Shown: in pieces, positions 9,401 through 34,479 of the stretch
Layout: every line of letters begins with the position of its first letter
How positions within the stretch are numbered: the first letter of the stretch is position 1
Assembly: GCA_026027325.1 (NCBI GenBank)
Contig: JAMSLZ010000007.1
Span: 1,116,001-1,180,000 of the forward strand
Length of the DNA: 64,000 bases
Direction of reading: 5' to 3'
Source: Actinomucor elegans
Lineage: Eukaryota; Mucoromycota; Mucoromycetes; Mucorales; Mucoraceae
Made by a program: the position numbers and the translations under genes
The notes under the pieces: model-generated
What the model saw: only the letters and a program-made list of their open reading frames with translations
Databases searched by the model: none
What the model was told of the DNA's origin: nothing

Positions 9401-9621
9401 GAAGAACATTTAGTATTACAGAAATATGTTCAAAATAGTACAATATATAAAAAAATTAGGAAATAATAGATTTTTTTGAATACAAATAATAATATAAATA
9501 AATTTTATTCTAAAATAGAACAAGTAACCAACATTTTATTTATGGATAAAAAGGCAACATTATATTTATGCCTTGATTTTTTAGGAAAGTTAAAAATATT
9601 AAGTAGTTGTAAATGTTTATC
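9401..9621 (+). repeat. Dch1 left direct terminal repeat
   Basis: 221 bp, starting GAAGAACATTT and ending AAATGTTTATC. The two ends are imperfect inverted repeats of each other (9 of 11). A stem (AAGGCA...TGCCTT) lies near the middle. It matches 11683-11903. Confidence 0.9.
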
Positions 9622-9776
9622 TTGTCCTATTTTTAGACTTCCATTGCGTTTAATCACATTGAGAAATCTAAAAACAACTTCCTTGGCATCTAATTCTTGG
9701 CATGATATTTTGGAAAATATAAAAGTATCTATAATATTTGAGAATTATTTTTAAAATAACATCAATATTATATTTA

Positions 9777-10145
9777 ATGGAAAAAATCTATTATTATGCT
9801 GTGGTTTTAACTCTAAATCCTGAAAAAAAAGATGTCAAGAATAAATCATCCGAAATATTAAACAAGAAAATACTGCAATGGGTTGGAAATATAAAAAATA
9901 TTGATAAAATTTTATATAGTGGTCCTTTCTATGATGTTGGTGAAAACAATACAAATATCCATGCCAATTTAGTGATAAAAACAATTTTAGATGATAACGA
10001 AAAAGTTAGAAATGAATATTTCAAATCCTGGTGTTTAAGAAAAGGATATGTTAGTATTAAAGAAATTTATAATTTTAAATCATGGTTAGATTATGCAAAA
10101 AGAAATCATAAGTTCTTGGAAAATATAGAAAATATTAAAAATTGA
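9777..10145 (+). CDS. Small Rep-like protein (possible HUH endonuclease domain) of Dch1
   Basis: 122 residues from ATG 9777. There is no closer family I can name with certainty. Three features sit in the order and spacing of the nuclease domain of rolling-circle Rep proteins: a beta strand ending VVLTLN (residues 8-13, motif I-like), NIHANLVI near 62-69 (motif II-like, one His followed by Asn where HUH has His), and WLDYAKR near 107-113 (motif III-like, Tyr and Lys three residues apart). No helicase domain follows. The stop codon overlaps an AAAATTGA box that begins the transposase leader, and a 29-bp stretch including that box is repeated 52 bp downstream. Dch2 and Dch3 lack an equivalent ORF. 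The role could be nicking during transposition, but the match is by eye only. Confidence 0.4.
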   Translation: MEKIYYYAVVLTLNPEKKDVKNKSSEILNKKILQWVGNIKNIDKILYSGPFYDVGENNTNIHANLVIKTILDDNEKVRNEYFKSWCLRKGYVSIKEIYNFKSWLDYAKRNHKFLENIENIKN

Positions 10146-10197
10146 ATTTTCATATATAAATAAAAGTTTATTAAATATAGAAAATATTAAAAATTGA
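10138..10197 (+). promoter_or_regulatory. Duplicated AAAATTGA box upstream of the Dch1 transposase
   Basis: AAAATTGA occurs at 10138-10145 and 10190-10197 within a 29-bp direct duplication (10121-10149, 10173-10201). The second copy is followed by TTTATATAAA and lies 38 nt before the ATG at 10236. It is the same arrangement as in Dch2, Dch3, Mer1 and Mer2. Confidence 0.55.
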
Positions 10198-10235
10198 ATT
10201 TCTCTTTATATAAAAATACATCATTTTATTTGTTT

Positions 10236-11671
10236 ATGAACACTCATATAGACTTATTAATTGAAAATGAATACAGAAATATTTACAATAGGTATTGGAA
10301 ATTTATGAAAAATGAATATATATATAAAGTTGAATTGAAATATCATAGATCTAAAATAACGAGTATACCAAATATTGATAGAATTAAAAAAAATATATAT
10401 ATTAAATTAGGAAGTATTGCTCCATTTGTATTTTTGACAGATTTATGTAACAATATAAAACTACCAGGTCCATATATAACAGCAGATAAAGTATTGATAT
10501 TATTAGAACATTTATTAAATGGAAAATCTATAAATGAAATGGAAATGTATATTCCATCTACTAGTTTTTATAAATTATATCAATCATTATATATAAATAA
10601 TTATGATTTATTGGAAAAATGGATAAATAATAAATTAGAAAAATGTTTTTCTACACATACATTGAGATTACTTTGTGCTAAGAAATTTAATCCAATGATG
10701 TTAGATAATGTAACATTACTAATTGATGGTCACCATAATCGTATAACATATCAAGATATTAATCTAGATAAAAAAGAGTTATTCTCGTATAAATTAAAAA
10801 GAAATGGATTAAATACACAATTTATTATAGATATTAATAGAATATGTGTTTATATATCTGATTCCTTACCTTGTAGAAATAATACTGATGATAAAATGCT
10901 TTTAGACATAAATATCAATAAGTTTTATAATGAAATAGATTGTATATGTTTTGATGGATTATATGAAAACACAGTAAAAGAATTTATAGAAAAATTTAGT
11001 AATATTGGATTTAATATATCCTTGAAAAATTTTTGCTATCCTATAAAAAAGATAAAGGAGTTGAATTAACCATAGATGAAAAAAAATTCAATGAAGAATT
11101 AGGTGGATTAAGGTCAAAAATAGAAAAATATTTTGCAGAATTAGGTAGTATTTTTAAAAGATTTAGTGGGCAAAATAAGATTAGAATAACAGATAATAAG
11201 ACATATAATATACAGCTAAAATTAGCAATAGTATTACTGAACATAAAATATTTTACAGAGTTATTTGGAATTGAAGAAAATGCCCATTACAACAAATGGC
11301 TAAATGATAATTTTGATTATTATTATAAAAATAATATTGAAATGAATAAAGAAGTAACATTAAAAACACAATATAAAATAGAAAATATCGTTGATATAAA
11401 ATCATTACAAAATCAATTTTTAAATAATTTAAATATAAATGAAGTGAATATAGATATTATGGATCAAATGGAGGAAGATATCACTAGTAATAATGATCAA
11501 AATATATATGAAATACAATATATAATTAAACACAAAAAAGTAAAGAACTTATATGAATATTTTGTAAAATGGAAAAAGTATGGTAAAGAACATAATTCAT
11601 GGGTAAAAGAAAAAGATTTTACATCACATGATACTATTTTGAATTATTGGAAATCAATAGAAAATAATTAA
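10236..11671 (+). CDS. Dch1 transposase: DDE domain plus C-terminal chromodomain, with a -1 shift
   Basis: Read from ATG 10236, with a -1 shift at 11045-11051 (A_AAA_AAG), the product is 478 residues; Dch2 gives 483 and Dch3 480. Likely catalytic acidic residues are in IDGHHN (about 163), CFDGLY (about 239) and SKIEKYF (about 294). The block YKLKRNGLNTQ...ISDSLPC follows the first Asp, as in the DDE_Tnp_4 (PIF/Harbinger, IS5-like) fold. A chromodomain fills about 424-478 (YEIQYIIKH, FVKWKKYGKEHNSW, ILNYWKS). The DDE domain should cut and join DNA; the chromodomain may guide insertion to marked chromatin (inference). Without the shift the first frame ends after about 277 residues, cutting off the third acidic residue and the chromodomain. 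The shift may be programmed, a mutation or a sequencing error. Confidence 0.7.
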
Positions 11672-11682
11672 TCAATTAATAA

Positions 11683-11903
11683 GAAGAACATTTAGTATTA
11701 CAGAAATATGTTCAAAATAGTACAATATATAAAAAAATTAGGAAATAATAGATTTTTTTGAATACAAATAATAATATAAATAAATTTTATTCTAAAATAG
11801 AACAAGTAACCAACATTTTATTTATGGATAAAAAGGCAACATTATATTTATGCCTTGATTTTTTAGGAAAGTTAAAAATATTAAGTAGTTGTAAATGTTT
11901 ATC
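11683..11903 (+). repeat. Dch1 right direct terminal repeat
   Basis: 221 bp, a near-perfect copy of 9401-9621 in the same orientation, starting 11 bp after the transposase stop codon. Confidence 0.9.
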
Positions 11904-13027: not shown

Positions 13028-13391
13028 TGTTATATCGAATATAATAAAGACTGTAAAAATAACCAGACTGATAAAACGAATTAATTTATTAAAGCATTAA
13101 AATGATGAGCTATTTATACAAAATTGAAGTTCGGATTTAACTTGATATTATAGACGATTGAGTTAGTCAAAGACTGCGCTCATGGAGTTAACAAGGATTT
13201 ATAGTAATCCATTCTAGTACGACTTTATATTCGGTGATAGATAGTTTATGAAGGTTAGCTGCACTAAGCATTGATTTCCATATATATCTCTTAACCGACG
13301 TTACAAAGCTGTCAAAGCACAAGCTGAGTATAAGCATTGTCGAACATTGACCTGATTGGTGACGGACACTGAACAAGTCATGTTTACAACA
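13028..13391 (-). repeat. Chr2-A 3' LTR
   Basis: 364 bp, TGTTATATCG...TTTACAACA, same family as the LTRs at 20706, 22849, 31038 and 51206. Confidence 0.95.
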
Positions 13392-13620
13392 TTGCCCCCT
13401 TCTAGACAGTTGCTTATACTAAGAGTGTTTGCATTGTTACTAGGTATAGTCTATAATGTGCATAAGTTAATAGGAAGTTACATACTTCGGTGCGTGTCCT
13501 TTCGCCTTGTAATGAACTGATCGTAGTTATTCCTCGATAAAAACCTTATGTAAAAAACCCGTAGGATAAAAGTGAAGGAAAAGAAGAATAACAAACAAGA
13601 CTGTATAAAAAGTCTATGAT

Positions 13621-16600
13621 CTATTGTTGGTTTCTACTGCGTTTGTTCCGAGTAGCTATCTTACGTGTATTGACTGTCATAGGAGCCTTACGTTTCTTGG
13701 AAGAGGATTGCTTATGATCAGCATTGCGACGTCCCCAATATATTTCAATTGGTTTCTTTGAATCGAAGTGTGATGGAGGTTCCCATGTATCATCTTCATC
13801 GTTTGGATATCCTTTCCATTTGACTCTGTATAAATAATTACCAGGTGAACCAGAATGATCAATGACTGCTTGTATTTCAAAGTGATCTTCTTTAAGCTTT
13901 TGATATTCTTCAGTAGATATATTATCTGAGGAGATGAATATAATATGCGATGTAGGTACATCTCTAGATAAGAGAGTACCCGCTTTATCTTTCAAGATAT
14001 AGCTACCGTTCTTTGTGATTCCATGTATATAAAATGGACCGAGATTACGCGCATCTAATTTGCTTAATCGTGTTACATTCTTAATCATAACTTTACTTCC
14101 AACAGGAAACTGCTTAGTTACAATCCTATGCGTTTTTACGAATCTGTCGTGATCACGTTCTTGCGTATCTCTTATGCGTTTAGACAATGCTGGTATAACG
14201 ACTTCATTGACAAATTTGAATTTTTCATCAATCATTTTCGTGTCAGTTTCTTCTAGTTGCAATACAGGTTTAGTATTTGAGTAGTCTTCAAAGCCATTTG
14301 GTTGTCTATTGAATAACACTGTATAAGGACGAGACTTATGTAACCGTGCGTATTTACAATTCATAGCGTATTGACAATAATTCAAATAATAATCCCAGTC
14401 AGCGCCTTTACCGCGTAATTCCTTAACAATTGTACGTTTTGCCAAACCGACATATGCTTCGTTTACCGAGTTACCCGTAGGAGAGTATGGTAATGAAAGT
14501 CTTCGATCAATGCCACTCATCTCAATCATTTTTGCTACAATATCAGCTGTGAACTCTGCACCATTATCCGAATTCAAGATCTTTGGAAAGCCAAATAACG
14601 AGAATATAGATAAAAGTTCGGCAGCGATAGTCGTACTATGTTTATCAGGTAATGCTCTAAGAACAGTAAACCTTGAATAATAGTCTACCATGACTAACAT
14701 AAAGTTATTGCCGCGGGAAGAGGTGACATCAAACGTACCTAAATCCATACACCAATGATCAAGTGGTTGATCAGGCAATACAGATTTTGGTGGGTGATAA
14801 CCAACTTTGGATATGTTGAACCTATTGCATTCAGTACATTCGCCCAAGATTCGTTGAATATCTTTTCGCATGTTTGTCCAGTGAATACCATCATGGTGTA
14901 ATTGGTTCTCGATGCTTTGTAAACCATAATGTCCTAAAAGGTGTGCTTTAAATACGAGATTATCACGTTCATTTTTAGGTGGTGTAATATAATCCGCAAA
15001 CTTTAATGTTCGAAGAATCAGGTCTTCATCGTCATTAGAAGTTTGTTGTGGAGATATAGTAGCGCAAGTATCATTACTCTGATCAGTAAGTAATATTGGT
15101 ACTGTTGAAGAAGAAGCTAAGAGAGAAGTATTATTTTTATAAATACTAGGGCGTGACTGTTGAGCAAATTGCTTTTGCTTTTAGCCATAGATCCCTTTTC
15201 ACTATCTTTCAAGCTTTTCTTTTTGTTTGAAATGCTACCAACATCACCAAGCGCGACTATATCGAGACAACTACCCCCCTCCAGAACATTAATCGGTTGA
15301 TCCTCGTCCGTATAAAGGCGTGAGAGAGCGTCAGGAATAAGATTTTTGAATCCAGGCAGGTGAACTGTATTGAACGTATAGCCAAAAATACCCTCATACC
15401 AACCAGCCATTAAAGCATTAGGTACTTCTTGAGTCTGCAAGTAAATGAGACTTTTATGATCAGTATGCAACGTAAAGGGAATGAGATACAGCCACTTGTG
15501 GAATTTCGCAAATGCATAAACGACAGCTAACAATTCACGTTTGGTAGTGCTATAGTTGCGTTCGGAAACACTAAGCTTTCGAGAAGCCAAGGCAACAAAC
15601 TTAACTTCATTATCGATAATTTGATACAGCATAGCACCAATACCAGACACACTTGCATCTGTTGCAACATGAAATCGTTGACCGATAACTGGAGGCGAGA
15701 TAACAGGAGCATTGGCCAGAGCGTATTTAAGAGCTGCAAAAGCTTGTTCGTGTTTGTTTGACCAGACTTTAGTAATATCTTTTACGTTACGTAGGTCATC
15801 TAAATCAGCAGCGAGTTTAGCAAAGAAAGGAATGGATGAACGGAAGAAGTTCATAAACCCGAGAAACTGTTGGATATGACGTCCAGTAGTCATTTTAGGC
15901 CAGCTTTCTAAGCTTGCTACTTTGCGAGGATCAGGGATCAGTTTACCTTTTATCAACGACCATCCCAATATGTGTATGCTCTGTTGAGCGAATACGATCT
16001 TATCAGGATTCAGTACGAGATTAGCACTAGTAAGACGTTTGGTCACTTCAGCAACGCAATCTGCATGATATGATAGCGGAGGAAATGTAGAAACAACGAT
16101 GTCATCTACATACACGTTGACGTAAGGAAGATCTTCAAAGAGTGTTGTCAGATTGCGTTGGACGACCGATCCAACGAAACTTATGCCATAGCACGCTTTG
16201 ATAAAGCGCATCTGCCGATTGGTATAGGGACATGTAAAGGACAGTTTCTCGCGATCTTCATCAGCAACTTTAAAACTTGTAAAGCAAGCATGAATGTCCA
16301 ATATAGTGTGGATTGGAGCAGAGCCAATACGTTGATGTATTTCTGAGATGAGAGGTAGTTGTTGTCTATCATTTACAATCAGCAATTGGTTAACTAGACG
16401 AACATCACAAACCACTCTAGGTTTAGCATACGTGTAATTACCGAATGAGTCCTTCTTTTTGACGCAAAGGATTGGACTATTCCACGATGTATGAGAAGGA
16501 GCTCTTTCAATGACACCTTCCTGTAACCATGTTTCTATTTGGTCAAGGACCGCAGAACGATATGCTTCAGGCAATGCGTATTGTTTTCTGTAAGCAACAC

Positions 16601-16784
16601 TTCCAGGCTTCGTTTTGAGATGAATAATAGCACCCGGTAAATTGCAGTATGTACTTTTCATATCAATAGAAGAATTGACCTGTAACAACTTGTTTATTTT
16701 ATCAAGTAAAGGCTTTCGCTCAGTAATCGTTCCGTATGGATTATCATTTGGTTTGACCTGATCAGGATCAATTGGGTCTGGGAG
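13621..16784 (-). pseudogene. Chr2-A Pol, one frameshift
   Basis: Same content as the copy B pol: reverse transcriptase (VYVDDIVV), RNase H (ATDASVSG), integrase (HLLGHYG zinc finger, then MDLGTFD, SDNGAEF and GNSVNEA), chromodomain (YRVKWKGYPNDEDDTW) and a basic tail ending at 13621. It differs from copies B and C by a T5-to-T4 contraction near 15177-15180, which breaks the frame between RNase H and the integrase. The C-terminal basic tail, lost in copy B, is intact here. The frame continues upstream to the UGA that ends gag at 16785-16787. Confidence 0.9.
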
Positions 16785-18723
16785 TCAATGGCCAATTTGT
16801 TCAAAGTGTGAACTAACAAGACCAGTGATACCAATGTTCAATTGAGGTAAGATGTCAAGACCAAAGCAAATAGGAACATCTTCATGAGTAAAGAAAGGAA
16901 AAACTTCAAAAGTATGGTAAAAAGATTTTTTATTATAGAATACTTTTAGAGTGCAAGACCCTATTCTACTGATCGCATTATTGACGTGGCCAAGCTGGAT
17001 TGTGCCTTCTTGCTTCACCAAAGGAATAGGTGGAACAAGTGAGTTAAAAAACTCTGGCGTAACCATAGAAAAGCTCGAACCCGAATCGATCAAACTGTAG
17101 GTAGTAATATTCTCTATAATAGCCGGTACAAAGAGAGAATTAGAAATCTGTCTTGGTGGCAATGAAAATCTTTTGTGATACTTACAAGCTTGTGCCTGCG
17201 CGGCGACCAGAAGCGATTCTTCATCTGAAATATCCATATCATTGATGCGTTGTGTGGCAACAGCCACAGCAGAAGAAGAAGAAGCATTGGTTGATCCAGC
17301 AGAAGAAGCAACAGAAGTATTAGTCTCGACGGTAGTGGAAACCGGAGCACGAGGAGCAGCAGAAGAAGTAGTAGTAGTAGTGCGAGAGGCAGAAGAGGAA
17401 AAACGTTCGGGCGACGTGGACATAGCTCTCATTACCAGATTACTGGCAGATTTACCAACACCATTCACTGCAGCAGATGAATCACAGCGATGTGATGGGT
17501 TCCAATTCTTAGCGCCACAACGACGGCAGTCACCAGGACCAGGCTTGGGTACACCTCCCAGTTTAGCAGCGCGACAAGAGTCCGTGCTATGCGTAGTCGA
17601 TCGGTGGAAAGAACAGAACAACCCTTTCTTTTCTCTTGTACTAGACGAAGAAGAAGGTTTTGATGCGTACTTCGAGGCAGCAGCACCATTAGGAAACGAT
17701 GACGACGATGGTTCATCAGAAACCTTTGACTTTTTCGTGCCAAGAGATTCCCTTTGATCGTCACCAGTACGCTTGTTAGCACGCATAGAAGCCAAACGAC
17801 TGTCCAAGTTACGAGCCACAGCGCAAACATACTCGAGATTCTGCGTCTGAGTTTCAGTTCCCATATTCATAGTATATGCCATACGTTCTTGAAATGAGTC
17901 AGGCAATCCACGCAAGAAGGTAGATATTAACAAGAACGAATCATTCAAGTCAGCACGACGACGTAACGCGTTAAAGCGGTCAATATACTGTTCAATTGTC
18001 TCGGTTGACCGTTTAGTGATGGCCATGAGCTCGTTAGCAGCAGTAGAGCGATCTACACTTGCATTCACACCAAACTTCTTCAAAAAGGCATCTTTTACAA
18101 TGGACCAAGTAGCAGCAACACCAGGCACAAAGAAGGTTTCTTTCAAGAATGTTTGATGATCCTCGTTTAAGCAACAGTACTTAAGTAGGCGAGCACCATT
18201 GACGTCCAAGTCAAGACCATGACACTCTACAACGACTTCGAAGCGAGAAAGACAAGTACGCAAGTCAGTGAAGATGGTAGACTTGTTGTCAGAAACCATA
18301 CCAACCCATTGGATAATAGGTAAGTCATTGGGCACAAACTCAGTACGTAACATAGTACTCTTAGTAGGACCCAGAGAAGCAGAAGCAGGACTAGCAGCAG
18401 AGCTACCAAGGGATTCTTCCATAGCCAGAAGAGATTCCTTGAATAACTTCAAATCCTTTTGTCGAAGAGCAAGATCACCACGAAGTTTCTTGGCAGCTTC
18501 TTCAGAGAGAACACCAGGAGTCACCAACTGGATAGTCATCTTGGCGATTTGAGCAGAGGCTTGACGGATAGCGTCCTTGATCACCTCAACGGAGTCAGAT
18601 ACGGATAAACCGTCATCACAGTTGTTCATCTCTACGTCTTGATCAGCAGAGGAGGATGTATCCCAAAAGAACTCTCAGGTTTATTATTAAAACTCCGAAA
18701 TCATTTTAATTTTTGTTTTATAC

Positions 18724-18731
18724 AAAATTGA
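18724..18731 (+). promoter_or_regulatory. AAAATTGA box before Mer1 transposase
   Basis: AAAATTGAATTTT, followed by TTTTATATTTAAAATATAA, 50 nt before ATG 18782. Same layout as the other Dch and Mer genes. Confidence 0.5.
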
Positions 18732-18781
18732 ATTTTGTTTTATATTTAAAATATAACTTAAAAAGGTTTTTATAGAACTAT

Positions 18782-19662
18782 ATGTTTATAGAACCATACA
18801 AATCTTTGAAAAAAATATTTGATGATGAGAAGGAAGCACTATTGTATTTAATTGAAAACAACTATGTTAACCATTATGAAAAGTGTTTAAAATGTAACCA
18901 TGATATTAAATTAAATATAAATAAAAAATTATATGTTTGCAGATTTTATAAATGTAGAAAAGCTATATCACCTTTAAAAGGTACAATATTTAATAAATTA
19001 ACATTATCATTAAATATACAATTACATATACTATATTATTTTCTTGGAAAAGTGCCATGTTCATTTACTGCATCAACATTAGGAATATCAAAGAATACTG
19101 TGTCATCTTATAATAAATTATTTAGAAAACATTTAAAAAATAAGCAATTATTAAGTAATAGAAATATTAAAATTGGGGGTAGAAATAAAATTGTAGAAGT
19201 AGATGAAAGTAAAATAGCTAAAAGAAAATATAATAGAGGTCATAGAGTAGAAGGTGCATGGATTATTGGAGGTGTAGAAAGAAGTATGTTAAAAAATAAA
19301 ATAAAAAACGAAAATAAAAAAACTTTTTTTGTCCCTATTAAAGAAAGAAATATTGATAATATAGATTTAATTATTAAAAAATATGTAAAAAAAGGAACCA
19401 CAATATATACAGATTTATGGAAAGGATACAATAATTTAAAGAATATAGGATATAAACATATGACTGTAAATCATTCCAAAAATTTTAAAGATCCAATAAC
19501 AGGTGTACATACTAATACTATTGAAGGTACTTGGAATGGATTAAAACAGAGTATAATACCCAGACATAGAAACAAAAAGATATATTATTGTTTTTAAAAG
19601 AATATCAATGGAGGAAAAAAAATAGGGAATATAATTTATGGAAAAAGTTTTTGACAGATTAA
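18782..19662 (+). CDS. Mer1 transposase (Merlin / IS1595-like DDE), frame break near the C-terminus
   Basis: Read with a -1 shift at 19573-19579 (C_AAA_AAG), the product is 293 residues, exactly the Mer2 length. Without it translation stops at 19597 and 22 C-terminal residues are lost. An N-terminal zinc ribbon (CLKC near 32, VCRFYKC near 52-58) is followed by the DDE domain: VEVDES (about 139), IYTDLWKGY (about 209) and HTNTIEGTW (about 246), the signature of ISXO2/IS1016-type transposases. The family cuts and pastes DNA and makes 8-bp target duplications, as seen here. The ATG at 18782 is the first after the leader box and matches the start in Mer2. Confidence 0.88.
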
Positions 19663-19773
19663 AGTTTATATATAACTTGATTAAATACAATTTGATTTTT
19701 TTATAAAAATGTAATATGACACGAAATATATTAAACTTAAAATGCATTTTGAAAGTTTATTTCAATTATTAAT

Positions 19774-19786
19774 ATGATCTGATCAT
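19774..19786. promoter_or_regulatory. 13-nt palindrome between the two Mer1 genes
   Basis: ATGATC-T-GATCAT, perfect 6-bp arms around one base. Mer2 has a different perfect 13-nt palindrome (CTGACT-A-AGTCAG, 61919-61931) at the matching place, flanked by similar sequence (AAATGCAT upstream, TAAACT downstream). The shape is kept while the letters change. Confidence 0.4.
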
Positions 19787-20181: not shown

Positions 20182-20202
20182 AAACAATTATATAGAAAAA
20201 TA

Positions 20203-23536: not shown

Positions 23537-23937
23537 GAGCAACGTTAAAAATAAAAAAAAATAAAAATTAGTTTTTAAATTAAATAGTGTTTTTTGTAAT
23601 TATATTTTTTTTGTTTAACACTTTTTTATTGTAATTTTTGAAAGTTTGGTAATTAACGTAAAAATAAGAAATTGCAATAATTATGCAAAACTTATAAAGA
23701 TTAAACTTTTATATTACTTTTCAATACAATTAAACTTTTTTTTTTCATAATATTTCACACCAGATCGAAACCCTGTTGTGCGACAATTTTTTTCTTTTAA
23801 AATTGATTAAAAAGCACGTCGTAAGTTTTTTAGCAACTTACAACTTGATAAATAAAGAAAACTATATAATTTTAATTTAATAATATAAAAATAATTATAA
23901 TATATATATTAATTATTAATGGTATGTAATGTAGCTC
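23537..23937 (+). repeat. Dch2 left direct terminal repeat
   Basis: Starts GAGCAACGTTA and ends TAATGTAGCTC, whose reverse complement GAGCTACATTA makes imperfect inverted ends. Near 23826 it holds a stem GTAAGTT...AACTTAC. Confidence 0.88.
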
Positions 23938-24082
23938 TTATATAAAAATTGCTCTTTGTTTTTGATTCATAGTATCAATTTTTATTTTATTTTTTGCCAA
24001 ATGTTTGAATGTTTAATATTAAAATAATTATAATTATAATCATTTCTGTAACATTAATTCAAACTCAATTACTTTTTTCTAA

Positions 24083-24090
24083 AAAATTGA
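24083..24090 (+). promoter_or_regulatory. AAAATTGA box before Dch2 transposase
   Basis: AAAATTGAATT, then ATTATATAAATAAA, 31 nt before ATG 24122. Confidence 0.5.
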
Positions 24091-24121
24091 ATTATTATAT
24101 AAATAAAAATAAGAACATCTT

Positions 24122-25572
24122 ATGACAATTGAAATAGAGGAACTATTAGAAAATGAATATGAAGAGATTAAAACAAATTATTGGAAATTTTTAGATAATA
24201 CATATAAATCTAATATTGAAAAACAATATCATAGAAGTAAAATAGGAAATTTTATTAACATTCAAAATATAAAAAAGAATTATATGAACTATTAGGTGCA
24301 ATTCCTATATTTGTATTTTTAACAGAAATTTGTAGTAAAATTAAAATGCCATCACCAGTATATAATGTAGAAAAAGGAATTTTGATTTTAAAATTATTAG
24401 TAGATGGTTGTTCCATTAATGATATGAAAATTTATGATGAGAATGATTCTTTTTATAGAATTTATAAATCTGTTTTTATTGATAATATAGATTTTTTAGA
24501 AAATTGGGTTAATAATACGATGTTTTATTGTTTTAGCAACAGCATTACTAGATTATTATATAGTAAATTATACAATCCTAAAAATTTTGAACATTGTACA
24601 TTACTTTTAGATGGAAGACATAATAGAATAGTAATTGAAGATATTGATTTAAATAAAAAAGATTTATATTCTTATAAATTAAAGAAAAATGCATTAAACA
24701 CCCAATTTATTATAGATTCAGCAGGATATATCATCTATGTTTCAGAATCATTACCATGTAAATTTAATAATGACGATAATATGTTTATTAATAATATAAA
24801 TTTAATGAAATTTTTTAAACTGACAGATTGTTTATGCTATGATGGATTATATGAAAATGTATTAGATGAAATTTTAAAAAAATATAATAATGTAGGATTA
24901 CATATTACAGAAAATAACTTTTGTTTTCCAATAAAAAAAGAAAAAAATATTGATTTAGATGTTGATGAATTAAATTTTAATAAACAATTAGGATCATATA
25001 GAAGTACCATTGAAACTTTTTTTGCAAAATTTTCAAATATATTCAAAAGATTTAGCTACAAAGCCAATGCAAGAATTACAAAAGAAAAAACATATAACAT
25101 TCAGATTAAATTAGCATTAGTTTTATTTAATATCAAAAACTTTGTAGAAAAAAATAATATAGAAGAAAAATCTTATTATAAACTATGGATGGAAAAAGAT
25201 TTTGATTTTTTTGATACTATTAAGGATTTTAATATCGAAACTAAATCAATAAAGGCGGTATATAAAAAAGAAAATATAATGAATATGAAAAGTTTACAGG
25301 ATGATCTTCTAAATAAACTTTTATCTGATAATAATTTTAAAATCAGCTTAACTAAAAATAAAATGCAAATTGATAATGATGATAATAATACTAGTACTGA
25401 TAAAAATGTATATGAGATACAATATATAATACAACATAGAAAAATAAATAATGAATATGAATATGAGGTAAAATGGAGAAATTATAAAAAACAAGTAAAC
25501 AGTTGGATTAAAGAAAGTGACTTTCAAACAAAAGATATTCTAAAGAATTATTGGGATTCTATCAATGTCTAA
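24122..25572 (+). CDS. Dch2 transposase: DDE domain plus C-terminal chromodomain, with a -1 shift
   Basis: Read from ATG 24122 with a -1 shift at A_AAA_AAG (24271-24277), the product is 483 residues. Without it the first frame stops after 57 codons, and the rest could only start near 24346. The probable acidic triad is in LDGRHN (about 163), CYDGLY (about 240) and STIETFF (about 296). The conserved block YSYKLKKNALNTQ lies between the first two. The chromodomain is at about 430-483 (YEIQYIIQH, YEVKWRNYKKQVNSW, LKNYWDS). Identity to Dch1 and Dch3 is clear along the whole length but the DNA is diverged, so these are separate lineages. The role is as for Dch1: cut-and-join recombinase with a chromatin reader. 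Confidence 0.72.
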
Positions 25573-25972
25573 GAGCAACGTTAAAAATAAAAAAAATAAA
25601 AATTAGTTTTTAAATTAAATAGTGTTTTTTGTAATTATATTTTTTTTGTTTAACACTTTTTTATTGTAATTTTTGAAAGTTTGGTAATTAACGTAAAAAT
25701 AAGAAATTGCAATAATTATGCAAAACTTATAAAGATTAAACTTTTATATTACTTTTCAATACAATTAAACTTTTTTTTTTCATAATATTTCACACCAGAT
25801 CGAAACCCTGTTGTGCGACAATTTTTTTCTTTTAAAATTGATTAAAAAGCACGTCGTAAGTTTTTTAGCAACTTACAACTTGATAAATAAAGAAAACTAT
25901 ATAATTTTAATTTAATAATATAAAAATAATTATAATATATATATTAATTATTAATGGTATGTAATGTAGCTC
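25573..25972 (+). repeat. Dch2 right direct terminal repeat
   Basis: 400 bp, differing from 23537-23937 by one base in an A run. It starts 3 bp after the transposase stop codon, ATGTCTAAG then AGCAACG. Confidence 0.9.
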
Positions 25973-28949
25973 TATGATCAGCATTGCGACGTCCCCAATA
26001 TATTTCAATTGGTTTCTTTGAATCGAAGTGTGATGGAGGTTCCCATGTATCATCTTCATCGTTTGGATATCCTTTCCATTTGACTCTGTATAAATAATTA
26101 CCAGGTGAACCAGAATGATCAATGACTGCTTGTATTTCAAAGTGATCTTCTTTAAGCTTTTGATATTCTTCAGTAGATATATTATCTGAGGAGATGAATA
26201 TAATATGCGATGTAGGTACATCTCTAGATAAGAGAGTACCCGCTTTATCTTTCAAGATATAGCTACCGTTCTTTGTGATTCCATGTATATAAAATGGACC
26301 GAGATTACGCGCATCTAATTTGCTTAATCGTGTTACATTTTTAATCATAACTTTACTTCCAACAGGGAACTGCTTAGTTACAATCCTATGCGTTTTTACG
26401 AATCTGTCGTGATCACGTTCTTGCGTATCTCTTATGCGTTTAGACAATGCTGGTATAACGACTTCATTGACAAATTTGAATTTTTCATCAATCATTTTCG
26501 TGTCAGTTTCTTCTAGTTGCAATACAGGTTTAGTATTTGAGTAGTCTTCAAAGCCATTTGGTTGTCTATTGAATAACACTGTATAAGGACGAGACTTATG
26601 TAACCGTGCGTATTTACAATTCATAGCGTATTGACAATAATTCAAATAATAATCCCAGTCAGCGCCTTTACCGCGTAATTCCTTAACAATTGTACGTTTT
26701 GCCAAACCGACATATGCTTCGTTTACCGAGTTACCCGTAGGAGAGTATGGTAATGAAAGTCTTCGATCAATGCCACTCATCTCAATCATTTTTGCTACAA
26801 TATCAGCTGTGAACTCTGCACCATTATCCGAATTCAAGATCTTTGGAAAGCCAAATAACGAGAATATAGATAAAAGTTCGGCAGCGATAGTCGTACTATG
26901 TTTATCAGGTAATGCTCTAAGAACAGTAAACCTTGAATAATAGTCTACCATGACTAACATAAAGTTATTGCCGCGGGAAGAGGTGACATCAAACGTACCT
27001 AAATCCATACACCAATGATCAAGTGGTTGATCAGGCAATACAGATTTTGGTGGGTGATAACCAACTTTGGATATGTTGAACCTATTGCATTCAGTACATT
27101 CGCCCAAGATTCGTTGAATATCTTTTCGCATGTTTGTCCAGTGAATACCATCATGGTGTAATTGGTTCTCGATGCTTTGTAAACCATAATGTCCTAAAAG
27201 GTGTGCTTTAAATACGAGATTATCACGTTCATTTTTAGGTGGTGTAATATAATCCGCAAACTTTAATGTTCGAAGAATCAGGTCTTCATCGTCATTAGAA
27301 GTTTGTTGTGGAGATATAGTAGCGCAAGTATCATTACTCTGATCAGTAAGTAATATTGGTACTGTTGAAGAAGAAGCTAAGAGAGAAGTATTATTTTTAT
27401 AAATACTAGGGCGTGACTGTTGAGCAAATTGCTTTTTGCTTTTAGCCATAGATCCCTTTTCACTATCTTTCAAGCTTTTCTTTTTGTTTGAAATGCTACC
27501 AACATCACCAAGCGCGACTATATCGAGACAACTACCCCCCTCCAGAACATTAATCGGTTGATCCTCGTCCGTATAAAGGCGTGAGAGAGCGTCAGGAATA
27601 AGATTTTTGAATCCAGGCAGGTGAACTGTATTGAACGTATAGCCAAAAATACCCTCATACCAACCAGCCATTAAAGCATTAGGTACTTCTTGAGTCTGCA
27701 AGTAAATGAGACTTTTATGATCAGTATGCAACGTAAAGGGAATGAGATACAGCCACTTGTGGAATTTCGCAAATGCATAAACGACAGCTAACAATTCACG
27801 TTTGGTAGTGCTATAGTTGCGTTCGGAAACACTAAGCTTTCGAGAAGCCAAGGCAACAAACTTAACTTCATTATCGATAATTTGATACAGCATAGCACCA
27901 ATACCAGACACACTTGCATCTGTTGCAACATGAAATCGTTGACCGATAACTGGAGGCGAGATAACAGGAGCATTGGCCAGAGCGTATTTAAGAGCTGCAA
28001 AAGCTTGTTCGTGTTTGTTTGACCAGACTTTAGTAATATCTTTTACGTTACGTAGGTCATCTAAATCAGCAGCGAGTTTAGCAAAGAAAGGAATGGATGA
28101 ACGGAAGAAGTTCATAAACCCGAGAAACTGTTGGATATGACGTCCAGTAGTCATTTTAGGCCAGCTTTCTAAGCTTGCTACTTTGCGAGGATCAGGGATC
28201 AGTTTACCTTTTATCAACGACCATCCCAATATGTGTATGCTCTGTTGAGCGAATACGATCTTATCAGGATTCAGTACGAGATTAGCACTAGTAAGACGTT
28301 TGGTCACTTCAGCAACGCAATCTGCATGATATGATAGCGGAGGAAATGTAGAAACAACGATGTCATCTACATACACGTTGACGTAAGGAAGATCTTCAAA
28401 GAGTGTTGTCAGATTGCGTTGGACGACCGATCCAACGAAACTTATGCCATAGCACGCTTTGATAAAGCGCATCTGCCGATTGGTATAGGGACATGTAAAG
28501 GACAGTTTCTCGCGATCTTCATCAGCAACTTTAAAACTTGTAAAGCAAGCATGAATGTCCAATATAGTGTGGATTGGAGCAGAGCCAATACGTTGATGTA
28601 TTTCTGAGATGAGAGGTAGTTGTTGTCTATCATTTACAATCAGCAATTGGTTAACTAGACGAACATCACAAACCACTCTAGGTTTAGCATACGTGTAATT
28701 ACCGAATGAGTCCTTCTTTTTGACGCAAAGGATTGGACTATTCCACGATGTATGAGAAGGAGCTCTTTCAATGACACCTTCCTGTAACCATGTTTCTATT
28801 TGGTCAAGGACCGCAGAACGATATGCTTCAGGCAATGCGTATTGTTTTCTGTAAGCAACACTTCCAGGCTTCGTTTTGAGATGAATAATAGCACCCGGTA
28901 AATTGCAGTATGTACTTTTCATATCAATAGAAGAATTGACCTGTAACAA
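25944..28949 (-). CDS. Chr2-B Pol (RT, RNase H, integrase, chromodomain), C-terminal tail replaced
   Basis: Pol is in frame with gag. Counting from Met 28949 it has 1001 residues, but the frame is open upstream to the gag UGA (29046-29048), so the true product probably starts by read-through. Domains: RT (YVDD near 195), RNase H (ATDASVSG near 342), integrase zinc finger (HLLGHYG near 585), catalytic MDLGTFD, SDNGAEF and GNSVNEA (about 648, 708, 743), and chromodomain YRVKWKGYPNDEDDTW (about 925-980). The last nine residues come from Dch2; the native basic tail seen in copies A and C is cut off. All core domains are intact, so the loss may or may not matter for activity. Confidence 0.93.
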   Translation of the reverse strand: MLQVNSSIDMKSTYCNLPGAIIHLKTKPGSVAYRKQYALPEAYRSAVLDQIETWLQEGVIERAPSHTSWNSPILCVKKKDSFGNYTYAKPRVVCDVRLVNQLLIVNDRQQLPLISEIHQRIGSAPIHTILDIHACFTSFKVADEDREKLSFTCPYTNRQMRFIKACYGISFVGSVVQRNLTTLFEDLPYVNVYVDDIVVSTFPPLSYHADCVAEVTKRLTSANLVLNPDKIVFAQQSIHILGWSLIKGKLIPDPRKVASLESWPKMTTGRHIQQFLGFMNFFRSSIPFFAKLAADLDDLRNVKDITKVWSNKHEQAFAALKYALANAPVISPPVIGQRFHVATDASVSGIGAMLYQIIDNEVKFVALASRKLSVSERNYSTTKRELLAVVYAFAKFHKWLYLIPFTLHTDHKSLIYLQTQEVPNALMAGWYEGIFGYTFNTVHLPGFKNLIPDALSRLYTDEDQPINVLEGGSCLDIVALGDVGSISNKKKSLKDSEKGSMAKSKKQFAQQSRPSIYKNNTSLLASSSTVPILLTDQSNDTCATISPQQTSNDDEDLILRTLKFADYITPPKNERDNLVFKAHLLGHYGLQSIENQLHHDGIHWTNMRKDIQRILGECTECNRFNISKVGYHPPKSVLPDQPLDHWCMDLGTFDVTSSRGNNFMLVMVDYYSRFTVLRALPDKHSTTIAAELLSIFSLFGFPKILNSDNGAEFTADIVAKMIEMSGIDRRLSLPYSPTGNSVNEAYVGLAKRTIVKELRGKGADWDYYLNYCQYAMNCKYARLHKSRPYTVLFNRQPNGFEDYSNTKPVLQLEETDTKMIDEKFKFVNEVVIPALSKRIRDTQERDHDRFVKTHRIVTKQFPVGSKVMIKNVTRLSKLDARNLGPFYIHGITKNGSYILKDKAGTLLSRDVPTSHIIFISSDNISTEEYQKLKEDHFEIQAVIDHSGSPGNYLYRVKWKGYPNDEDDTWEPPSHFDSKKPIEIYWGRRNADHRATLHTINN

Positions 28950-29045
28950 CTTGTTTATTTTATCAAGTAAAGGCTTTCGCTCAGTAATCGTTCCGTATGG
29001 ATTATCATTTGGTTTGACCTGATCAGGATCAATTGGGTCTGGGAG

Positions 29046-30983
29046 TCAATGGCCAATTTGTTCAAAGTGTGAACTAACAAGACCAGTGATACCAATGTTC
29101 AATTGAGGTAAGATGTCAAGACCAAAGCAAATAGGAACATCTTCATGAGTAAAGAAAGGAAAAACTTCAAAAGTATGGTAAAAAGATTTTTTATTATAGA
29201 ATACTTTTAGAGTGCAAGACCCTATTCTACTGATCGCATTATTGACGTGGCCAAGCTGGATTGTGCCTTCTTGCTTCACCAAAGGAATAGGTGGAACAAG
29301 TGAGTTAAAAAACTCTGGCGTAACCATAGAAAAGCTCGAACCCGAATCGATCAAACTGTAGGTAGTAATATTCTCTATAATAGCCGGTACAAAGAGAGAA
29401 TTAGAAATCTGTCTTGGTGGCAATGAAAATCTTTTGTGATACTTACAAGCTTGTGCCTGCGCGGCGACCAGAAGCGATTCTTCATCTGAAATATCCATAT
29501 CATTGATGCGTTGTGTGGCAACAGCCACAGCAGAAGAAGAAGAAGCATTGGTTGATCCAGCAGAAGAAGCAACAGAAGTATTAGTCTCGACGGTAGTGGA
29601 AACCGGAGCACGAGGAGCAGCAGAAGAAGTAGTAGTAGTAGTGCGAGAGGCAGAAGAGGAAAAACGTTCGGGCGACGTGGACATAGCTCTCATTACCAGA
29701 TTACTGGCAGATTTACCAACACCATTCACTGCAGCAGATGAATCACAGCGATGTGATGGGTTCCAATTCTTAGCGCCACAACGACGGCAGTCACCAGGAC
29801 CAGGCTTGGGTACACCTCCCAGTTTAGCAGCGCGACAAGAGTCCGTGCTATGCGTAGTCGATCGGTGGAAAGAACAGAACAACCCTTTCTTTTCTCTTGT
29901 ACTAGACGAAGAAGAAGGTTTTGATGCGTACTTCGAGGCAGCAGCACCATTAGGAAACGATGACGACGATGGTTCATCAGAAACCTTTGACTTTTTCGTG
30001 CCAAGAGATTCCCTTTGATCGTCACCAGTACGCTTGTTAGCACGCATAGAAGCCAAACGACTGTCCAAGTTACGAGCCACAGCGCAAACATACTCGAGAT
30101 TCTGCGTCTGAGTTTCAGTTCCCATATTCATAGTATATGCCATACGTTCTTGAAATGAGTCAGGCAATCCACGCAAGAAGGTAGATATTAACAAGAACGA
30201 ATCATTCAAGTCAGCACGACGACGTAACGCGTTAAAGCGGTCAATATACTGTTCAATTGTCTCGGTTGACCGTTTAGTGATGGCCATGAGCTCGTTAGCA
30301 GCAGTAGAGCGATCTACACTTGCATTCACACCAAACTTCTTCAAAAAGGCATCTTTTACAATGGACCAAGTAGCAGCAACACCAGGCACAAAGAAGGTTT
30401 CTTTCAAGAATGTTTGATGATCCTCGTTTAAGCAACAGTACTTAAGTAGGCGAGCACCATTGACGTCCAAGTCAAGACCATGACACTCTACAACGACTTC
30501 GAAGCGAGAAAGACAAGTACGCAAGTCAGTGAAGATGGTAGACTTGTTGTCAGAAACCATACCAACCCATTGGATAATAGGTAAGTCATTGGGCACAAAC
30601 TCAGTACGTAACATAGTACTCTTAGTAGGACCCAGAGAAGCAGAAGCAGGACTAGCAGCAGAGCTACCAAGGGATTCTTCCATAGCCAGAAGAGATTCCT
30701 TGAATAACTTCAAATCCTTTTGTCGAAGAGCAAGATCACCACGAAGTTTCTTGGCAGCTTCTTCAGAGAGAACACCAGGAGTCACCAACTGGATAGTCAT
30801 CTTGGCGATTTGAGCAGAGGCTTGACGGATAGCGTCCTTGATCACCTCAACGGAGTCAGATACGGATAAACCGTCATCACAGTTGTTCATCTCTACGTCT
30901 TGATCAGCAGAGGATTCAACAGCAACAGGAGGATTAATGACAGCGTCATTAGAACCAGAAACAGTGGAGATAGGAGCAGACAT
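29046..30983 (-). CDS. Chr2-B Gag-protease, ending in a UGA in frame with Pol
   Basis: 645 residues from ATG 30983. The N-terminal third is low-complexity and acidic. The middle holds the capsid-like region around WSIVKDAFLKKFGV and IEQYIDRFNALRR. Two atypical zinc knuckles follow: CSFHRSTTHSTDSC (near 364) and CRRCGAKNWNPSHRC (near 399). The aspartic protease motif LIDSGSSFSM lies near 546, so protease is made with Gag. The ORF ends CAT-TGA-CTC, and the same frame stays open into Pol. UGA followed by C is a known leaky stop context (established for several viruses), so read-through is the likely Gag-Pol mechanism (inference). The Ser/Ala/Thr-rich linker creates long spurious antisense ORFs. 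Confidence 0.92.
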   Translation of the reverse strand: MSAPISTVSGSNDAVINPPVAVESSADQDVEMNNCDDGLSVSDSVEVIKDAIRQASAQIAKMTIQLVTPGVLSEEAAKKLRGDLALRQKDLKLFKESLLAMEESLGSSAASPASASLGPTKSTMLRTEFVPNDLPIIQWVGMVSDNKSTIFTDLRTCLSRFEVVVECHGLDLDVNGARLLKYCCLNEDHQTFLKETFFVPGVAATWSIVKDAFLKKFGVNASVDRSTAANELMAITKRSTETIEQYIDRFNALRRRADLNDSFLLISTFLRGLPDSFQERMAYTMNMGTETQTQNLEYVCAVARNLDSRLASMRANKRTGDDQRESLGTKKSKVSDEPSSSSFPNGAAASKYASKPSSSSSTREKKGLFCSFHRSTTHSTDSCRAAKLGGVPKPGPGDCRRCGAKNWNPSHRCDSSAAVNGVGKSASNLVMRAMSTSPERFSSSASRTTTTTSSAAPRAPVSTTVETNTSVASSAGSTNASSSSAVAVATQRINDMDISDEESLLVAAQAQACKYHKRFSLPPRQISNSLFVPAIIENITTYSLIDSGSSFSMVTPEFFNSLVPPIPLVKQEGTIQLGHVNNAISRIGSCTLKVFYNKKSFYHTFEVFPFFTHEDVPICFGLDILPQLNIGITGLVSSHFEQIGH

Positions 30984-31037
30984 ATTGAATAGTAAGTGTA
31001 TAATAAACCAAAAAGTAGCAGATAAGGTTAAAAAAAA

Positions 31038-31401
31038 TGTTATATCGAATATAATAAAGACTGTAAAAATAACCAGACTGATAAAACGAATTGATTTATT
31101 AAAGCATTAAAATGATGAGCTATTTATACAAAATTGAAGTTCGGATTTAACTTGATATTATAGACGATTGAGTTAGTCAAAGACTGCGCTCATGGAGTTA
31201 ACAAGGATTTATAGTAATCCATTCTAGTACGACTTTATATTCGGTGATAGATAGTTTATGAAGGTTAGTTGCACTAAGCATTGATTTCCATATATATCTC
31301 TTAACCGACGTTACAAAGCTGTCAAAGCACAAGCTGAGTATAAGCATTGTCGAACATTGACCTGATTGGTGACGGACACTGAACAAGTCATGTTTACAAC
31401 A
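31038..31401 (-). repeat. Chr2-B 5' LTR
   Basis: 364 bp, matching 22849-23212. Followed on the minus strand by eight T (31030-31037). Confidence 0.95.
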
Positions 31402-31452: not shown

Positions 31453-31953
31453 TGAGATGTTTCCTGAGATGTTCGTAATTAGTTAGGTACGTGTTTAATT
31501 AACGAGACAGAAAACAAGAGAGAGATTTATTCTACCACTGCCCGCCTTCTGTTATTAATAGGCTGGGTGGTGGTTACATATAGTAAATATAACTAGTCAC
31601 GATTACACAAGTTAGGAGGTCATACAGATACTCGCAATTGTTGTACAATTACTCGTACAGGTTCTGGGTTAGTGGATGACCGGGTGCAATAGAATGTGGT
31701 TATACAATATGTCTCCGGCATTCCAAATATTTCTAGCCGTTTTAAAAATTGGAAATAGCCATTTAAATGGGTACACATATCCAGAGAACATCACAGCAGC
31801 CAAAAATATGCCCATGAGTAAATACCTAAGGTCATCCACTAACCCAGAACCTGTACGAGTAATTGTACAACAATTGCGAGTATCTGTATGACCTCCTTAA
31901 CTATTCAGGCCACTTCTATTACTATTCTATGTAAAGTAGTTATGTCCACTACA
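31453..31953. repeat. Solo LTR, family I, carrying a MITE
   Basis: TGAGATGTTTCC...GTCCACTACA, flanked by TGAAT (31448-31452, 31954-31958). Comparison with the intact Trn1 LTR confirms the clean insertion. Without the MITE and its duplication it is about 216 bp. Confidence 0.8.
31615..31896. mobile_element. MITE with 67-bp perfect inverted repeats
   Basis: Arms 31615-31681 and 31830-31896 are perfect inverted repeats starting GGAGGTCATACAGATACTCG. The element is flanked by TTA (31612-31614, 31897-31899), the classic PIF/Harbinger target. The 148-bp middle has no ORF of note. It is a 282-bp non-autonomous element, perhaps moved by a PIF/Harbinger transposase. Confidence 0.8.
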
Positions 31954-32140: not shown

Positions 32141-32372
32141 GACGGACATCTTGTTTCATATAAATTTGGTACGTATATTAGGAGAAAGCATAAATATAAT
32201 ATTGCTTTTTCATGCAAAATGGAACAGTTGCCTTCTTGATAATGTTTATTATACTTAATAATAATTTTAATTCATGAAAAAAAGTTATAAATTATAAAAT
32301 ATATGGATATATTAAAAAAAAATAGGACATATACAATAGATTTAAAAGATATATTAATTGTAGATATCCGTC
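32141..32372 (+). repeat. Dch3 left direct terminal repeat
   Basis: 232 bp, starting GACGGACATC and ending GATATCCGTC, so each repeat has 10-bp inverted ends with one mismatch. A stem GAAAGCA...TGCTTT lies near 32190. Confidence 0.92.
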
Positions 32373-32750
32373 TACTATAACCATAGAGAAATGTTTCTGT
32401 TGCTATAAAATTCTGAATTATAAAATCAGCTTAACACTACAATTCTTTTCAAATTATCAATTTGTTTGTCATTCCATGAAAATTAAAAATGTTCACAATT
32501 TGTGAACTTTTTATATTTTCTATTTCTTTAAAACAATTAGGATTTATTATATTTTGTGTAACACAAAATATTTATAAATCTGTCTATTAATAAAAAGTTC
32601 AAAAAAAATAATTGATTTTACAATTTTGCTGACTAAGCAAAATATAAAATTAATAAATTTTAGAATTACTTCAAACTTTTCAAAATAAAAAATGTTTTCT
32701 AAAACATAATAATGTATATATATTATTATTAATTTTATTTTAAGTTATAA

Positions 32751-32758
32751 AAAATTGA
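32751..32758 (+). promoter_or_regulatory. AAAATTGA box before Dch3 transposase
   Basis: AAAATTGAATTT, then CAATATAAAAAA, 26 nt before ATG 32785. Confidence 0.5.
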
Positions 32759-32784
32759 ATTTATCTCAATATAAAAAAGAACAA

Positions 32785-34226
32785 ATGGATAATATTAATA
32801 ATGTTAAGGATACTTTATTAATGGAGTATCAGATTCTAACAAATGATTATTGGAAATTTTTAAATTATGGTTGGCCAGAGATTGAACAAAAAAATATCAC
32901 ACTAAAAAGATTATATCTATTAAAAAGATCAAAGAAATTAAAAAGATTTTATTAGAAAAGTTAGGAATAATACCTGTTTATTTCTTCCTAGTTATATTAT
33001 TTGGAGATAGAGATTATAGAGGACCATATAATAATATAGAAAAAGGCTTATTGATATTATATTTTATAGTAGAGAATATATCAATTGAAGATATGGATGA
33101 TTATATATCAAAAAGTACTTTTCATCAAATATACAGACAATTTTATTCATCAGATAGAATGTTAAAATTAAATAAGATTTTAAGTTTTTCTTTACAAAAC
33201 ATGTTTTCAAATATAAAAATTAGACTTTTAAATGGAATGATAGAGAATCCAGATTTGTTTAATCAAGTAACAATACATTTAGACGGCCATGATAAAAGAG
33301 GTATGGTATATGGTGCAGAAGATAAATCCATATATTATAGTTACAAACTTAAAAAAAATGGGTTTAGAACACAAGTTGCAATAGATACAAATGGTATGGT
33401 ATTATTTGTATCAGACAGTCAACCATGTAGTACTAATAATGATGGATCTATGCTTATAAATATGAATATTGAAAATAAACTAAATTTGATGGATTGTATT
33501 GCATTAGATGGAGGATATAGCCTATACGTAGATAATATAATAAATAGTTCTGATCTAAATGACTATAACTTCGTATATCCTATCAGAAAAGATAAAAATA
33601 TAAACTTAAATGAAATTGAAATAAATTATAACGATCAATTTGGAAGTTTTCGGTCTAAAATGGAAAAAACTTTCTCAGATTTGGGATGTATCTTTAAAAG
33701 ATTAAATAACAAAAAACCTTTTTTAACTACTAATATAAATATATATAATATTCAACTAAAAATTGCATGTGTCCTTTTTAATTTAAAAAAATATATTAAA
33801 CTAAACAATATAGAACATAGTGATTTTCATTCATATTGGATTAATGATAGCTTTGATTTTAAATACAAAAATGATATTTTGAATAATAATGAAAATTATA
33901 AATCACTTCCAAAGTTAAATGAAAGAATAAACAATTTAGATAAAATGAAATTATTACAGCAACAATTTTTAGGATTAGAATTATCAAATATTGCTCATTT
34001 TAAAAATAATAATATTTATAATAATGAGAAAATGGACTTGGAAATAGATATAGATAATAATGAAAGTTATGAAATTGAAACTATTTTGGATCATAAAGGG
34101 TTAATAGTCGAAGATAGTTATTACCTTGTGAAATGGCAAAACTACAGTGATGAGGATAATTCATGGATACATTACAGTAAATTTAATAGTTTTGATTGTA
34201 TTAATATATATTGGAATAGTAAGTAA
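32785..34226 (+). pseudogene. Dch3 transposase: DDE domain plus chromodomain, frame broken near residue 40
   Basis: With one base restored in the A run near 32904-32908 the product is 480 residues. As written, the first frame stops at 32955 and the remainder is open from about 32960 to 34226. Acidic triad candidates: LDGHDK (about 165), ALDGGY (about 241) and SKMEKTF (about 291). YYSYKLKKNGFRTQ and FVSDSQPC match the other two Dch proteins. The chromodomain is at about 427-480 (YEIETILDH, YLVKWQNYSDEDNSW, INIYWNS) and is the closest of the three to chromovirus chromodomains. Unlike Dch1 and Dch2 the break is not at A_AAA_AAG, so recoding is unlikely here; mutation or base-calling error is likelier. 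Confidence 0.75.
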
Positions 34227-34247
34227 CTAATTTAAAATGTTATAGAA

Positions 34248-34479
34248 GACGGACATCTTGTTTCATATAAATTTGGTACGTATATTAGGAGAAAGCATAA
34301 ATATAATATTGCTTTTTCATGCAAAATGGAACAGTTGCCTTCTTGATAATGTTTATTATACTTAATAATAATTTTAATTCATGAAAAAAAGTTATAAATT
34401 ATAAAATATATGGATATATTAAAAAAAAATAGGACATATACAATAGATTTAAAAGATATATTAATTGTAGATATCCGTC
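34248..34479 (+). repeat. Dch3 right direct terminal repeat
   Basis: 232 bp, apparently identical to 32141-32372, starting 21 bp after the transposase stop. Confidence 0.92.

Follow-up and report, generated by a model that had tools for sequence, protein, structure and literature searches.

The 64,000-nt stretch of Actinomucor elegans DNA analysed here (assembly GCA_026027325.1, JAMSLZ010000007.1:1,116,001-1,180,000), which we call the window and to whose positions all coordinates refer, contains three elements, E1, E2 and E3. They are probably DNA transposons with a PIF/Harbinger (PHIS)-like DDE_Tnp_4 transposase that ends in a chromodomain. Each consists of an internal region (INT) between two long terminal repeats (TRs), in the order TR-INT-TR, and our main new result is that the two TRs within an element change in concert. 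Further copies were sought in the whole genome (36.5 Mb, 27 contigs). The parts of the three elements, with their target-site duplications (TSDs) and open reading frames (ORFs), are these:

9401..11903, plus strand: E1, full element of 2503 bp, TSD ATT
9401..9621, plus strand: E1 left TR, 221 nt, its own ends being GAAGAACATTTA.../...TAAATGTTTATC
9777..10145, plus strand: E1 ORF2, a 122-aa accessory protein matched by 12 database proteins
10236..11069, plus strand: E1 transposase gene, part 1; the frame is broken in the window copy
11015..11671, plus strand: E1 transposase gene, part 2, with the chromodomain
11683..11903, plus strand: E1 right TR, matching the left TR at 221/221 positions
23537..25972, plus strand: E2, full element of 2436 bp, TSD TAT, inside a Ty3 element
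23537..23937, plus strand: E2 left TR, 401 nt
24122..24295, plus strand: E2 transposase gene, part 1; the frame is broken in the window copy
24259..25572, plus strand: E2 transposase gene, DDE_Tnp_4 and chromodomain, its stop codon abutting the right TR
25573..25972, plus strand: E2 right TR, 400 nt, differing from the left TR by one 1-nt gap
32141..34479, plus strand: E3, full element of 2339 bp, TSD CAG
32141..32372, plus strand: E3 left TR, 232 nt, ends GACGGACATC.../...GATATCCGTC
32785..32955, plus strand: E3 transposase gene, part 1; the frame is broken in the window copy
32886..34226, plus strand: E3 transposase gene, DDE_Tnp_4 and chromodomain
34248..34479, plus strand: E3 right TR, matching the left TR at 232/232 positions
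41373..41775, minus strand: solo E2 TR, 98.3% identity, with TTT on either side

The direct repeats of 221-401 bp described in the first-pass annotation of this DNA are therefore present as claimed, and the three TSDs it gave are all exact. Its statement that the elements have no reverse transcriptase (RT), no TG...CA ends and no 5-bp duplication also holds: the ORF listing contains no second ORF of at least 150 aa within E1, E2 or E3, and therefore no RT, the ends read GA...TC, and the duplications are of 3 bp. The empty sites that it reported in the window fared unevenly, with E2 having two (joined flanks 240/240, 100%) and E3 two (99.2 and 98.8%), while the E1 case is weak, its match reaching merely 13 nt beyond the junction.

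Where the first-pass annotation went wrong was in finding no inverted ends. Every TR starts GA... and finishes ...TC, and its two edges form an imperfect inverted match of 10-17 nt, as seen in E1-E3 and in three further families of this genome, F6, F7 and F8, when the left edge is set beside the reverse complement of the right edge:

E1: GAAGAACATTTAG / GATAAACATTTAC
E2: GAGCAACGTT / GAGCTACATT
E3: GACGGACATC / GACGGATATC
F6: GAGGATTGATTATTATA / GACGATCAATTATTATA
F7: GAGATACGTTT / GAGTTACGTTT
F8: GAGAAACGATTTTAT / GAGAAACGATTTCAT

Because each TR is bounded by short inverted repeats, the whole element also ends in an inverted pair.

Genome searches with the TRs were evaluated over 40 of 111 candidates for E3, 40 of 101 for E1 and 40 of 108 for E2. 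The E3 counts leave aside 13 of 16 single-TR loci, which have INT on one side, and L001-L008; those for E1 leave aside six unpaired TR loci (L042, L047, L051, L056, L059 and L065), and those for E2 the unpaired TRs L073, L081 and L082 and a copy with L092 that is interrupted by an E3-like element. Among 39 full copies (11 of E1, 16 of E2, 12 of E3) the TSD is exactly 3 bp in 34, 4 bp in two and absent in three, against a mean of 2.6 and a maximum of 8 copies with a 3-bp TSD in 2000 permutations of the flanks. It had been proposed that 4-6-bp duplications with a linked RT would mark these as ordinary long terminal repeat (LTR) elements; duplications of 4 bp occur in just those two copies, none is of 5 or 6 bp, and there is no RT. 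A 3-bp TSD was also seen in the single copies read of F6, F7 and F8 and, by eye, in a fourth family, F5. The flanks follow a preference C-NWN-G: across 33 distinct 3-bp insertions, a tally that excludes the two copies with 4 bp and the three with no TSD and counts two same-flank E1 copies once, C is present in 18, G in 19 and A/T in the middle in 30. TWA accounts for three of the 34 TSDs and ANT for nine.

In E2 and E3 both DDE_Tnp_4 and Chromo exceed the Pfam cut-off, as the earlier assignment of these domains would predict; E1, read as two pieces, passes for Chromo and falls under the cut-off for DDE_Tnp_4. The shared protein of 478-483 residues proposed at first reading is borne out by intact copies elsewhere in the genome, of 478 aa (E1), 483 aa (E2) and 480 aa (E3). 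In each window copy the transposase frame is interrupted once, within an A-run, which may reflect either mutation or assembly error. Programmed frameshifting was considered and dropped because the breaks lie at three different places in the gene and intact copies exist. An alignment of 52 proteins (46 of 63 database matches and six from this genome) has DDE_Tnp_4 in all 52 and Chromo in 51, with catalytic residues D164, D241 and E298 invariant; at the three positions that we take to form the chromodomain cage, Y/F, W and Y/F are found in 52, 51 and 51 proteins. The named relatives (Mucor flavus, Mucor hiemalis, Thamnidium, Cunninghamella, Apophysomyces, Rhizomucor, and Mortierella with its kin) all belong to the Mucoromycota, and transposases of the E1-E3 type appear to form a fungal clade. 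Many of the 120 E3 relatives among the matches listed have DDE_Tnp_4 and lack a chromodomain in their precomputed domains, which suggests gain or loss of the chromodomain within this group. The chromodomain as a targeting domain is best known from chromoviruses.

ORF2 of E1 is a conserved small gene (~120 aa) with one invariant histidine and with no known domain above the Pfam cut-off or in PHROGs and PDB profiles. We considered a Rep-like (HUH) nuclease from TLNP, NxHxN and YAK motifs recognised by eye; none of these three resources supports it, and the idea is unproven and not used here. A relative lies in the defective E3-like element L116 (L116:1579-1881, minus strand, past the transposase remnant), and since it is 77% identical in DNA to E1 ORF2 despite the wide distance between the E1 and E3 transposases, ORF2 seems to have been moved or exchanged between families. 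E2, E3, F6, F7 and F8 have no second unspliced ORF of at least 100 aa that does not overlap the transposase gene, and ORF2 has no Myb match, so that a Myb/SANT second protein was not found within that scope.

The left and right TRs of an element share their changes, as LTRs do. E2 comprises two subfamilies separated by four sites in the TR, and in all 16 pairs the left and right TRs have the same four-site haplotype, with eight copies of each type (17 copies are paired, one being omitted for want of its left part; a common left flank occurs in two copies). Four sites in the INT vary along with the TR type (first 1.5 kb; ten copies, eight and two). The TRs of L116 are 100% alike over 232 nt and only ~82% alike (18% different) to those of E3, and this pair adds a deeper split. 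In the single copies of F6, F7 and F8, too, left and right TRs are the same.

Solo TRs flanked by a 3-bp TSD make up three of four read for E1, nine of nine for E2 and three of three for E3, and their flanks (n=15) have C in ten, G in ten and a middle A/T in 12. Seven of the nine E2 solos carry haplotypes absent from full copies, one of these seven, L087, being mixed; the solos are thus in part older. A pattern census of E3, with the INT end exact and the other patterns allowed up to two mismatches, a setting that misses diverged copies, returned 61 TR starts and 24 each of INT starts and INT ends. All 24 INT ends continue into a TR and 22 of the 24 INT starts are preceded by one at the expected distance; the remaining two have their nearest upstream TR start 1.9 and 7.6 kb away and were probably split from it by nested insertions. 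With 61 TR starts and 24 INT copies there are ~13 solo E3 TRs, and among these 24 copies the census found neither half-elements nor multimers.

E3 sites lie within 100 kb of a contig end in 13 of 34 cases, where 3.7 are expected, and within 100 kb of another E3 site in 19 of 34, where 7.1 are expected (34 of 37 sites; three on contigs of unspecified length are excluded).

Protein searches of the genome gave at least nine families in our own grouping of the matches. Five beyond E1-E3 were fetched (F4-F8; F6, F7 and F8 were read from one copy each), and in the eight families read the long repeats are direct in six (E1, E2, E3, F6, F7 and F8) and inverted in two (F4 and F5). Copies lacking the direct repeats had been named in advance as speaking for ordinary LTR elements; F6, F7 and F8 have them, and F4 and F5 carry long inverted repeats instead, so that objection applies in part; F5 still has its 3-bp TSD. 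F5 (L097/L117) carries long inverted repeats in two pairs, of 203 and 221 nt, with ATA flanking the whole. It consists of two adjacent inverted-repeat modules inside a single 3-bp duplication, the first holding a 113-aa ORF, and the pattern of matches suggests that the transposase module is flipped at four other places. We did not adopt F4 as a clear inverted-repeat relative: its long inverted repeats surround a 284-nt palindromic unit, its outer ends and TSD are not fixed, and it is used for orientation only. In an unrooted tree of 24 proteins, E3, F4, F5 and P0061 are separated from E1, E2, F6, F7 and F8 (support 100/99), with the caveats that P0061 is a long branch and F4 has an odd composition. 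Direct repeats thus occur on either side of the split, because E3 falls in one group and E1, E2 and F6-F8 in the other, and at least two changes of repeat orientation are required on the tree.

In proposing how an element comes to have two identical ends, we consider it likely that these are DNA and not RNA elements, whose TRs are homogenised in the transposition cycle or by recombination. A DNA element is favoured because of the transposase, the short inverted ends, the 3-bp TSDs and the inverted-repeat relative F5; the last of these, with a 3-bp TSD and a place in the E3 clade, counts for a DNA route because LTR-type replication does not make long inverted repeats. Each TR is a module edged by short imperfect inverted repeats, which leaves at the outermost ends an inverted pair that a DDE transposase could use. 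We infer that the transposase recognises these short ends, that the chromodomain would steer insertion to H3K9me-type chromatin, and, from the way the TRs behave, that a new copy takes its two TRs from one template. In one version of the cycle, joining of TR to TR would produce a one-TR circle; the transposase would cut 3' ends at both outer TR boundaries, on opposite strands; the TR would open into two 3' overhangs, which would be linked to the target at points 3 bp apart; and filling of the gaps would leave two identical TRs. Recombination between TRs would also give solo TRs. Taken alone, this route, in which staggered 3' cuts at the edges of a one-TR circle let one repeat template both ends of the insertion, is a tentative proposal and on present evidence a doubtful one.

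Several points weigh against this account. No intermediate has been seen; RNA-templated replication also gives the same LTR-like pattern. Only four of the 16 E2 pairs are identical letter for letter; another 11 show small indels, and one has two substitutions in the left TR as well. A single founding event in each subfamily may underlie the haplotype agreement. The mixed haplotype of the solo L087 indicates that exchange, if rare, does happen. We found no sign of a TR moving alone, none of the 24 E3 copies missing a TR. The clustering of E3 near contig ends may come from selection and not from chromodomain targeting.

Homogenisation by recombination overlaps with an explanation in which the TRs are kept alike outside transposition, by gene conversion in the host or by unequal exchange, and the element is an ordinary cut-and-paste transposon. 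We regard this as possible, though short of probable. It needs no new biochemistry, the solo TRs suggest TR-TR recombination, and one E2 solo, L087, has a mixed haplotype; however, conversion must outpace substitution in each lineage, yet the E2 subfamilies are unmixed in 16 of 16 full pairs, and no multimers were seen among the 24 E3 copies. It is quite unlikely, in our judgement, that each TR is an independent miniature inverted-repeat transposable element (MITE) that moves alone, as bacterial insertion sequences do, and flanks a transposase gene by chance. Inverted ends on both sides of each TR, solo TRs with 3-bp TSDs and an equal target preference, and the mix of direct (six) and inverted (two) long repeats among the eight families would all fit such a composite; so would a precedent in the KolobokP transposons of animals, whose long terminal direct repeats (LTDRs) were excised singly in one clam family, according to Kojima & Bao 2022 (PMC9587614). 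Independent modules would nevertheless diverge within an element, whereas in the E2 pairs and in the E3-like element the TRs change together, there are no half-elements among the 24 E3 copies, and the layout common to E1, E2, E3, F6, F7 and F8 would require repeated assembly.

An RNA route, in which LTR-type elements are copied by the RT of resident Ty3 elements with the DDE-chromodomain protein as integrase, would account for TRs that agree within a copy while lineages differ (the E2 pairs and L116), for solos with a TSD, and for an E3 census of 24 INT copies and ~13 solos in which half-elements and multimers were not seen; the window also contains a Ty3 copy whose reading frames are long and open. 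We still think it unlikely. E1-E3 have no RT by the ORF criterion above, their TSDs are of 3 bp against 5 bp in two Ty3 copies, their ends are inverted over 10-17 nt and are not TG...CA, F5 in the E3 clade combines long inverted repeats with a 3-bp TSD, and no polypurine tract resembling the Ty3 AGAAGGGGG lies ahead of the right TR. The purine fraction before the right repeat, 0.33-0.67 against 0.73 in Ty3, is by itself a weak separator, and a tRNA-type priming site does not discriminate, none standing out by eye past the left TR of E1-E3 or in the Ty3 copy. As for an ordinary LTR retrotransposon with a captured gene, direct repeats and solos would be expected of it; the missing RT, the 3-bp TSD, a DDE gene conserved across families and the inverted repeats of F5 make it very improbable indeed.

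If the one-TR circle is true, DNA transposons acquired long terminal repeats without reverse transcription on at least two occasions, once here and once in KolobokP. LTR-like ends are usually read as the mark of reverse transcription, and annotation pipelines may well class such elements as LTR elements; here they accompany a second kind of DDE transposase, in another kingdom. The fused chromodomain hands a DNA-transposon enzyme a targeting domain, and many near-identical copies with concerted repeats allow the question of how a DNA transposon keeps both ends identical to be tested in a fungus with a small genome.

The neighbours of E1-E3 in the window include the two Ty3 elements, which have the 5-bp TSDs GTTAT and AAAAG and, by eye, a chromodomain-like C-terminus:

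13028-21069, minus strand: complete Ty3 element with TG...CA ends
22849-31401, minus strand: complete Ty3 element with TG...CA ends, host of E2

A 284-nt unit with 68-nt inverted ends lies at 31614-31897, flanked by TTA if its ends are read as GGAGGTC...GACCTCC; it has many copies, some inside F4-type elements, and looks like a Harbinger-type MITE. An ISXO2-like (DDE_Tnp_IS1595) transposase ORF occupies 18782-19597, and 60912-61211 is 81% identical to its start.

With the Ty3 LTR retrotransposons of the window, E1-E3 share long direct repeats that are alike within a copy, solo repeats and a C-terminal chromodomain (seen by eye in the Ty3 ORF). They differ in having no RT, no TG...CA and a TSD of 3 rather than 5 bp, and in the family of their DDE protein. 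The PHIS transposons share with them the DDE_Tnp_4 transposase (52 of 52 proteins here) and, in several lineages, 3-bp TSDs, as summarised in PMC12730594 and PMC12477816. Neither the TWA/TNA duplication of canonical Harbinger nor an ANT rule is followed here, but other PHIS lineages have other TSDs, so E1-E3 may still belong to PHIS; the Myb/SANT second protein was not found in ORF2 or among the unspliced ORFs searched; and the C-terminal chromodomain of the E1-E3 type and the long direct TRs of six of eight families are further differences. In bacterial composite transposons, as outlined in PMC9587614, modules with inverted ends flank a centre in direct or inverted orientation, whereas in E1-E3 it is the transposase that the modules enclose, and these change in concert.

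The transposases of the Kolobok group, to which the one described parallel in architecture belongs, bear a C/DxxH motif. In PMC9587614 the KolobokP elements have an INT that encodes a DDE transposase, set between long terminal direct repeats with short inverted repeats of their own; the earlier claim that no described family has this combination consequently fails for the architecture, though KolobokP has another transposase. The inverted repeats at the repeat edges are 11-18 bp there and 10-17 nt in the six families here, the termini read 5'-RR...YY-3', and TSDs of 3-5 bp and solo repeats occur there as 3-bp TSD solos do here. The same paper places the C/DxxH motif ahead of the last E; none of our 52 proteins has the motif between the second D and E, and ours have instead a chromodomain on a DDE_Tnp_4 transposase. 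KolobokP carries a His-Me homing nuclease, none being found here by Pfam in ORF2 of E1 or of the E3-like element or among ORFs of at least 100 aa in E2, E3 and F6-F8; its repeats measure ~450 or 660 bp against 220-401 here; multimers of the form (LTDR-INT)n-LTDR are common, against none in 24 E3 copies; and one clam family has half-elements, unlike E3. The available portion makes no mention of concert between the repeats.

The Kolobok motif is reportedly located after the second D. Among titles and the openings of abstracts, a search that mostly left out subscription papers, we found no fungal transposon described as combining a DDE-chromodomain protein with long direct repeats. E1-E3 look like an independent second case of the architecture after KolobokP, and this rare architecture, in a new transposase setting, is real and well supported.

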